DNA of 64,000 bases from NCBI GenBank assembly GCA_016192455.1, contig JACPUC010000011.1, forward strand, positions 124,001-188,000, read 5' to 3'. Source of the stretch: Candidatus Tectimicrobiota bacterium (lineage in GTDB: Bacteria > JACPUC01). The notes under the pieces are model-generated. The model did no database searches, was not told where the DNA came from, and saw only the letters and a list, made by a program, of their open reading frames with translations. The translations under genes and the position numbers were made by a program. Below are positions 39,526 to 41,683 of this stretch, in pieces (within the stretch, counting starts at the first letter, position 1; each line of letters starts with the position of its first letter).

Positions 39526-39603
39526 CGGGGCGTGGCGCAGCCTGGCTAGCGCACCTGCTTTGGGAGCAGGGGGTCGGAGGTTCAAATCCTCTCGCCCCGA
39601 CCA
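39526..39603 (+). tRNA. tRNA-Pro (TGG anticodon)
   Basis: Complete cloverleaf: acceptor CGGGGCG/CGCCCCG, anticodon stem CCTGC/GCAGG with loop TTTGGGA (anticodon TGG, codon CCA), T arm GGAGGTTCAAATCCTCT, and encoded CCA at 39601-39603. A TTGACA lies at 39487-39492 upstream. A degenerate copy of the 3' part is found at 41643-41683. Confidence 0.96.
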
Positions 39604-39974
39604 ATAAAATCAATTGGTTATAAGAATCTGACTCTTCATCATTGAAAGTAGGTTGCCCAAGAATCGGGGGCTACCAATGCTGCGAAAAGTGGCTCTAGGA
39701 CTGTCAGGCCAAGGCGGCAGGAACGCCTGCTAGAGCGCGTGCTAACTGGCGGCGACATCACCCACTTCCAGGAGAACGTCGTCGCCGTGAATGTATCTAT
39801 CCGTCTCATGCAGGAAATCGACGGGGCATAAAAGAGCATGGCAGCAGGCCAGACGCACTCGTTAACAAATCGTAGATTGGCTGAGGCGTTTTTCACGGCT
39901 TAATCTGGAAGACCGATCTTAATGTCATCTGAAAAGCGATTACCATTCCACCTGTCAATACTTTCTCTTCCCCT
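39604..39974. other. left arm of the tRNA-Pro insertion
   Basis: No complete gene. A plus-strand stretch near 39650-39832 reads SRTVRPRRQERLLERVLTG then GDITHFQENVVAVNVSIRLM and ends in a stop; it has no start codon and looks like the 3' remnant of a gene I cannot identify. Confidence 0.35.
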
Positions 39975-41408
39975 ATGAATCCCCTTATCCACATAAGCGC
40001 CTTTCAGCTGATTGAGGGGCTGCGCTCTGGCCTATCACGATTCTCTGGCCCAAGCAGGGTAGCCCTCTTAATGGCAGTAAATTCGAATGATCCAATCAAA
40101 GTATACGATTATCATTGCTTATTAGGTCCCAAGAAAAAAGAATTGAAAAATAGGTACATTGATACGGATGTATGGAAGCGTCATGTCGAGAGCAGTACTC
40201 GTTCTTGGGGAAGTAATATTGAGAAAAATCTAGGCGGGATTGAGATACCAGGACTCATCTCGTGGGGTTCGCAATCACGGAACGTCTACTACCAGATGTG
40301 GTTTACAGAGAATCACCAGAATCTCTGTTCCGAAGGTCCTACAGAAAGATGGTTGCAAAAGGCAGCATCGCTGCGATCTAGTGATACGGGCAACATGGCT
40401 GCTTTGATGTCAGGTGCATCTAGCGGAGCGATAGAGTGGTATGGTAATGGAGCAATTCAGTTCCACTTACAAGCTAGGCTGCAGTCTCTACTTGGTACAG
40501 ATTCGAAGCTTCCAATCGAGAAAATCTTGAACGCCATCTTGGCGGTATCTATAACTAGGGAAGAAGGCAAGAAAGTATCAGGTAATCTTGTCTTTATTGA
40601 AACTAAACAACTAGAAACACTTACTTTCATAAGCCGCTTTCCTGGTGGGTCCGTTCCCCAATTGGAACGTATCAAGCACCTTCGAAAACTCATTACATCA
40701 GTAGATCGAACAAATGCTTACCTTTGCTCAGATGGACATATTGTAACTGGCATAATTCAAAACCAAATACCAGAGTATGCGATCCTTGCAAGATATGACG
40801 CTGGGCGAGGAGAACTCCTTATTAACGATGAGCCAGTATGCACTTTTGCAGATGGGCGATTTTGCGGGACTCATTTGAGGCCAGATTTATTTGCTTTGCA
40901 AGAAGCTCTCACTACGCTTGAAGCAGATCATAATTATCAACCTGAATTCCTTAAAAGGATATTGGCTCTAGTCGAGACTGCTTGGGAACGACAGCATGGT
41001 TGTACACTTGTGCTGGATGTAGGTGTAAATTCCCTTAGTCTTCCTGGCCAGCTCCTTGATCCACCCTTGGACCTTAGTACAGATGAGAATTTATCTCTAG
41101 CCAAGTCAATGACCATGATTGATGGAGCCTTGCACATAGACTTCAGGAATCAGATACGTGCATTTTCATGCCTCCTGGATGGACTAGCGACGCCAAATGA
41201 AGATCGGTCACGAGGTGCACGATATAACTCGGCCCTTCGATTCAGCAAGAGCCACGCCGGCACGATTGTGGTCGTCATATCAGAGGACGGTCCGATTTCG
41301 ATCTTTTCGAACGGAGAAGATTTGACTGCTTCACCAAGCTGGCCAGACATGGAGAGGATTGATATTGATCCACCAACCTTATTTCAATGGTTGCAGGATG
41401 ATTCTTAA
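39975..41408 (+). CDS. DisA/DAC-like nucleotide cyclase candidate with N-terminal sensor region
   Basis: 477-residue soluble protein, AT-rich relative to flanking genes. The C-terminal 100 residues resemble the diadenylate cyclase (DisA_N/DAC) domain: MIDGALHID with DGA at 383-385, RAFSCLLDG, GARYNSALRFS (414-424, where DAC enzymes have GTRHRAA), and TIVVVISEDGPISIFSNGED. The DGA motif is kept, but the RHR motif reads RYN, so catalysis is uncertain. The N-terminal 350 residues match no domain I know and may be a sensor, like the DACNV-type regions described for DAC-linked conflict systems. If active it would make c-di-AMP or a related dinucleotide. There is no effector gene alongside. The ribosome-binding site is weak; the start is the first ATG. 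Confidence 0.75.
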   Translation: MNPLIHISAFQLIEGLRSGLSRFSGPSRVALLMAVNSNDPIKVYDYHCLLGPKKKELKNRYIDTDVWKRHVESSTRSWGSNIEKNLGGIEIPGLISWGSQSRNVYYQMWFTENHQNLCSEGPTERWLQKAASLRSSDTGNMAALMSGASSGAIEWYGNGAIQFHLQARLQSLLGTDSKLPIEKILNAILAVSITREEGKKVSGNLVFIETKQLETLTFISRFPGGSVPQLERIKHLRKLITSVDRTNAYLCSDGHIVTGIIQNQIPEYAILARYDAGRGELLINDEPVCTFADGRFCGTHLRPDLFALQEALTTLEADHNYQPEFLKRILALVETAWERQHGCTLVLDVGVNSLSLPGQLLDPPLDLSTDENLSLAKSMTMIDGALHIDFRNQIRAFSCLLDGLATPNEDRSRGARYNSALRFSKSHAGTIVVVISEDGPISIFSNGEDLTASPSWPDMERIDIDPPTLFQWLQDDS

Positions 41409-41642
41409 TCGGCTCATTAGATATTTGTGTGGGTAACAGGGTGGAGATCGAGGCTTCCGGGGGCGCGAATGAACGGAGACAACGTAGAAGGGGTTGCCCC
41501 ACTGCCCCAACATTGCCCAAATGAAGTGAGTAATTGTGATAATCTGTGAAACTCATTGAACTGCTCGTTGGCTGTAAGTTATTGAGACATAAGGCAAACT
41601 TCCGCCTGCTTGACATTTCCTTGCCTTGTGGTAAGCTCTTTA
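41409..41642. other. right arm of the tRNA-Pro insertion
   Basis: 234 bases, no gene. The first half is GC-mixed, the second AT-rich, leading to the promoter-like pair at 41610-41637 and the tRNA-derived repeat. Confidence 0.35.
41610..41637 (+). promoter_or_regulatory. promoter-like pair before the tRNA-Pro fragment
   Basis: Perfect TTGACA (41610-41615), 16 bases, TAAGCT (41632-41637), ending just before the partial tRNA-Pro sequence. It may drive the downstream MNT gene at 41756, or be a relic of a former tRNA promoter. Confidence 0.4.
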
Positions 41643-41683
41643 GGAGCATGGGCTCGGAGGTTCAAATCCTCTTGCCCCGACCA
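41643..41683 (+). repeat. degenerate 3' copy of tRNA-Pro (candidate attachment site)
   Basis: Shares TCGGAGGTTCAAATCCTCT and GCCCCGACCA with the 3' end of tRNA-Pro (39563-39603), with a handful of mismatches. Weaker similarity continues into the anticodon arm (TTTAGGAGC against TTTGGGAGC). The 5' half of the tRNA is absent. Confidence 0.85.

Follow-up and report, generated by a model that had tools for sequence, protein, structure and literature searches.

The most probable reading of the locus described here, to which we assign a probability of roughly 60%, is that it is what remains of an element, now lacking a recognisable integrase, that inserted at the 3′ end of a tRNA-Pro(TGG) gene, and that its cargo is a horizontally acquired, sensor-gated nucleotide cyclase of the DACND-DACNH-DAC type. 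The protein family is already catalogued; the setting of this member is unusual. The locus lies in a window of 64,000 nucleotides, by which we mean the whole stretch of DNA that was analysed, and the source genome is known from a single assembly that is 88% complete.

Locus structure and composition

The left boundary of the insert is an intact tRNA-Pro gene, as originally predicted, and it was found by ARAGORN and Rfam alike (Table 1). The degenerate copy of its 3′ part on the right was present as well but proved longer than first described, covering 46 bases rather than 41 bases from position 41643. This copy runs from the anticodon loop to the CCA and is identical to the tRNA at 42 of the 46 bases (51 nt at 88% when the flanks are included); the next-best ungapped match of those tRNA bases within the window reached 25/46. 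Between the tRNA and the repeat lie 2,034 bases (~2.03 kb) with a GC content of 46.2%, versus 65.4% for the window, and their sole substantial open reading frame is the DACND-DACNH-DAC gene, so the AT-richer insert of about 2 kb with a single 477-aa gene was confirmed. The GC3 of this gene was 0.40, versus 0.87 to 0.94 in the flanking genes (rph, 0.92; rdgB, 0.87; thiolase, 0.94; ech, 0.90). The tRNA-derived repeat and this difference in composition support the view, also part of the original prediction, that the 2.03-kb segment is a foreign, tRNA-bounded insert.

Table 1. Features of the tRNA-bounded insert, in window coordinates
Feature	Position	Strand	Evidence
tRNA-Pro (anticodon TGG), intact; putative attL	39526..39603	+	ARAGORN; Rfam RF00005, 62.8 bits
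Left part of insert, non-coding or decayed	39604..39974		open stretch ~39646-39831 (+) ends in a stop; no Pfam match
DACND-DACNH-DAC gene, 477 aa, sensor-linked diadenylate-cyclase-type	39975..41408	+	Pfam; AlphaFold2
DACND probable sensor domain, residues 7-174	39993..40496	+	Pfam E 1e-40, 139.6 bits
DACNH probable sensor domain, residues 183-275	40521..40799	+	Pfam E 4e-18, 65.6 bits
DAC domain, residues 337-448	40983..41318	+	Pfam E 3e-13, 49.8 bits
Degenerate copy of tRNA-Pro 3′ part; putative attR	41638..41683	+	42/46 identical

The expectation of neither an integrase nor an adjacent effector was also borne out: besides the DAC gene, no open reading frame of integrase size lies inside the repeat. 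The flanking genes are, on the left, the run amidase-GerMN-rph-rdgB and, on the right, those for an MNT nucleotidyltransferase, a thiolase, an OB/zinc-ribbon protein, and an enoyl-CoA hydratase. A 59-aa reading frame to the left of the DAC gene matched no Pfam family and was dropped as a candidate integrase relic. Reading by eye, we saw no clear Shine-Dalgarno sequence ahead of the ATG at 39975, and an 18-nt inverted repeat (39880-39897 and 42177-42194) was taken as chance. The MNT-type nucleotidyltransferase gene (41756-42073, plus strand; Pfam NTP_transf_2, PADLOC PDC-S09) lies just past the right repeat, and we noticed no HEPN partner next to it.

Origin of the insert

We then considered where such a segment could have come from. 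The left flank is an ancestral neighbourhood, because the order rdgB-tRNA-Pro(TGG) is common to distant genomes: in 10 of 29 loci from such genomes (L183, L185, L189, L191, L192, L195, L197, L202, L203, and L204), this tRNA is found downstream of rdgB, where tRNA-Arg(TCT) often comes next, sometimes immediately, and tRNA-His does so in some cases. Elsewhere in the source genome, a sister gene, tRNA-Pro(GGG), is matched, at a distance of 5,337 bp, by a 43-nt copy of its 3′ end (L215; G000:C2:279000-292000, positions 4951-10365). The sister segment encodes a truncated tyrosine recombinase (phage-type integrase; Pfam E 1e-20) about 55 bp from the tRNA, with internal stops in the wider reading frame, together with a 1,418-aa protein that has no Pfam match. 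The sister repeat and its decayed integrase indicate that a tyrosine-recombinase element has targeted the 3′ end of a tRNA-Pro gene in this genome. The insert in the window resembles the sister element on a smaller scale and minus its integrase, which supports its interpretation as a relic of a tRNA-Pro element, and we infer that the segment entered by integrase-mediated recombination.

Domain architecture and modelled fold

The window protein scored above the Pfam gathering cut-offs of all three of its domains (27 bits each for DACND, DACNH, and DAC) and is thus a member of the DACND-DACNH-DAC family (PF21749, PF21750, and PF02457), with the same domains in the same order in the one homologue that we checked (L034). 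Its AlphaFold2 model, built from 59 sequences, had a pLDDT of 88. The modelled C-terminal part matched CdaA (8c4n) with a Z score of 15.7 and an rmsd of 2.5 Å over 129 residues, against a Z score of about 7 for unrelated rows. Both the Pfam match and this structural comparison, which had been set beforehand, bear out the proposed DisA/DAC-like C terminus. The pairing of a sensor with a DAC domain was likewise foreseen, and the N terminus is indeed of sensor type, but the arrangement is DACND-DACNH-DAC rather than DACNV. When DACND was folded alone, we obtained no clear solved relative, and its matches are weak enough to speak for a fold class only (Foldseek best E value = 0.015, Z score of at most 7.8 [VIA]). 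As modelled, DACND may bear a weak resemblance to GAF/roadblock/longin-class folds, a likeness that would fit the name "probable sensor" and that proves nothing. The DAC fold (Z scores of 13 to 16) and the DGA motif are common to the window protein and to CdaA, DisA, and CdaS; they differ in their N-terminal domains and in having RHR where the window protein has RYN.

Active-site motif

The DGA motif of the window protein (residues 383-385) aligns with that of CdaA. RYN lies at residues 416-418, inside R413-G-A-R-Y-N-S-A420; RHR is absent, with its first arginine alone kept. The substitution of RYN for RHR was therefore correctly read at the outset, but it is not a loss, being normal for this class of DAC. 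RGAR[YF]NS was present in 93 of 95 DACND homologues (the search pattern did not match the remaining two), and RG[AS]R[YF]NS was present in seven of the eight distant DACNG/DACNH-type relatives that we read, the eighth having RGARLNA (one of these eight scored 530 bits against the DS-2 model, under its cut-off of 630). Since RG[AS]R[YF]NS is thus a class motif shared by DACND homologues and distant relatives, we rejected RYN as a sign of decay. Furthermore, of 81 columns that were at least 95% conserved across 58 homologues, 74 were retained in the window protein, and none of the 7 that differed fell within DGA or RGARYNSA.

Homologues and their surroundings

A query of GTDB contigs with the single protein gave no match, and an alignment-based scan found 460 relatives. 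The best 80 of the 460 were almost all labelled as Thermodesulfobacteriota sulfate-reducer groups or Deltaproteobacteria/Proteobacteria metagenome-assembled genomes (MAGs), plus one Obscuribacterales MAG. DACND occurred in 2 of 386 genomes of a domain-wide sample versus 23 of 395 genomes in the phylum of genome G023. The window protein aligned over its full length with members of the family at 34 to 43% identity (about 36 to 43% for 58 homologues), and in a quick tree it paired with the Obscuribacterales MAG copy (SH-aLRT = 100), with long branches on both sides of the pairing (window and L058 rows).

We next looked at the genes around the homologues, which were taken as longest-ORF picks. Across 95 loci, no gene cluster was present in more than 16 and none held a fixed position; among the 25 commonest families listed, no linked effector recurred, and the immediate neighbours were mostly ordinary metabolic genes. 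A search for CD-NTases within four genes of DACND-DACs, covering 147 genes of 230 to 420 aa at 61 loci (25 commonest families listed), found none and did find its positive control. No tRNA was close by at the scanned loci. Having neither a partner nor a tRNA nor a detected CD-NTase nearby, the homologues indicate that a lone DACND-DAC gene is the normal state. The single gene in the insert is thus not the compact form of a larger system. The survey of homologue neighbours and tRNA proximity that had been proposed gave a divided answer: the lone gene is shared, but the link to a tRNA is unique to the window locus among the scanned homologues. We therefore rejected tRNA association as a family trait; the tRNA setting is peculiar to the window locus. 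The window protein shares DGA, RGAR[YF]NS, and the absence of a linked partner with the DACND-DACNH-DAC proteins, which are mainly from Thermodesulfobacteriota; unlike them, it is long-branched and is encoded, within a tRNA-Pro repeat, by a gene far AT-richer than its own genome.

Relatives in phage defence and on mobile DNA

DS-2, which consists of a phospholipase, a cGAS, and a DAC, sits with a CBASS pair (PMC13092281), whereas the window gene does not, as both a CD-NTase and a phospholipase were absent among its flanking genes. Defence by DS-2 was lost when the predicted catalytic residues of its DAC were mutated, and a CBASS adjoins 15 of 30 homologues of this DAC (PMC13092281). Relatives of the DS2_3 type (NF053872) share with the window protein a DACNH ahead of DAC and the signature DG[AS]...LDG...RGARFNS; one of them (L055) has DACNG where the window protein has DACND and is longer. 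The NCBIfam model DS2_3_antiphage (NF053872) matched residues 182-444 of the window protein with an E value of 2e-19 and 69.2 bits, versus an equivalog cut-off of 630. PADLOC gave no match to the window protein, and a search of the source genome for SMODS CD-NTases found none.

The window protein family had no match in INPHARED. Three IMG/VR contigs carry DAC cousins, all of the DACNG/DACNH type. One of the IMG/VR contigs (L139) encodes an 865-aa DAC-motif protein (6615-9212) with DACNH and C-terminal TPR matches and, a few kilobases downstream, a TIR-TM defence-type protein (13915-14739). Another (L138, 1-2963) has a DACNG-DACNH-DAC gene at the contig end, beside a gene that reads like a putative integrase. 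On Priestia megaterium plasmid pFDU301D (L222, 2812-10457), a distant DAC gene adjoins a CBASS-type oligonucleotide cyclase (CD-NTase), and a DUF2357 and AAA ATPase pair lies near it.

Discussion

Under the preferred reading, of an acquired sensor-gated cyclase in the relic of a tRNA-Pro element, DACND and DACNH would sense a small molecule, a protein, or a cell state, and this sensing would let two DAC domains meet head to head. The paired domains would then join two nucleoside triphosphates (probably ATP) to form a cyclic dinucleotide, and receptors encoded elsewhere would respond to it. That the protein catalyses at all is presumed here, as are its product and the signal it senses. A contrary case, that the window DAC is catalytically dead and acts as a nucleotide-binding regulator, can be argued from M. 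tuberculosis DacA, in which changing RHR to AAA abolished ATP binding and activity (PMC3328451), given that the window protein keeps the first arginine only. We consider this unlikely, because RGAR[YF]NS is conserved throughout the class, DGA is retained, and defence is lost on mutating the predicted catalytic residues of the DS-2 DAC, which has relatives with RGAR[YF]NS. Taken together, the conservation of RG[AS]R[YF]NS and the DS-2 mutants mark out DACs of the R[YF]N class, which are probably active.

What the cyclase would be used for can be argued in two ways. It may be a one-gene anti-phage cassette, in which the sensors detect infection and a cyclic nucleotide triggers an effector, as for the DS-2 DAC near a CBASS operon. 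The DS2_3_antiphage match, the DS-2 catalytic mutants and the CBASS genes beside DS-2 homologues, the distant DAC next to a CD-NTase on the Priestia plasmid, the DACNG/DACNH-type relatives on three IMG/VR contigs, and the foreign tRNA insert itself all favour such a role, which by analogy is plausible. Against it, the window protein falls far short of the DS-2 equivalog (69 versus 630 bits) and is passed over by PADLOC, the surveyed surroundings of DACND-DACs yielded mostly ordinary metabolic genes and no CD-NTase (25 commonest families listed), and the source genome has no SMODS CD-NTase that we could find; we rate this reading as less likely than not. Roughly equal in likelihood is a role in housekeeping or stress, in which the protein would supply c-di-AMP to maintain potassium, osmotic, or wall homeostasis and its position at a tRNA would be incidental. 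The window gene is the sole DAC match in the assembly, and the chromosomal copies of Thermodesulfobacteriota are solitary genes with mainly metabolic neighbours (25 commonest families listed). However, most DACND genomes hold another strong DAC match, so the DACND family is accessory, and with completeness at only 88%, another DAC may be missing from this assembly. The foreign composition and the repeat also speak against a housekeeping role, as does the failure to find a c-di-AMP riboswitch (RF00379) in the source genome. Much less probable than either is a minimal, integrase-less one-gene element that is moved in trans by a tRNA-Pro integrase and whose R[YF]N DAC would produce, for use in phage defence, a cyclic nucleotide different from c-di-AMP.

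These results suggest that DACND-DACNH-DAC cyclases can reach lineages beyond the Thermodesulfobacteriota, where most of them occur, as a lone gene. Moreover, the R[YF]N-type class of DACs, which includes relatives of the DS-2 cyclase, departs from CdaA and DisA at the active site, and this difference makes the product of these enzymes a directly testable question in a family of sensor cyclases of which one branch is needed for a phage-defence system, DS-2.
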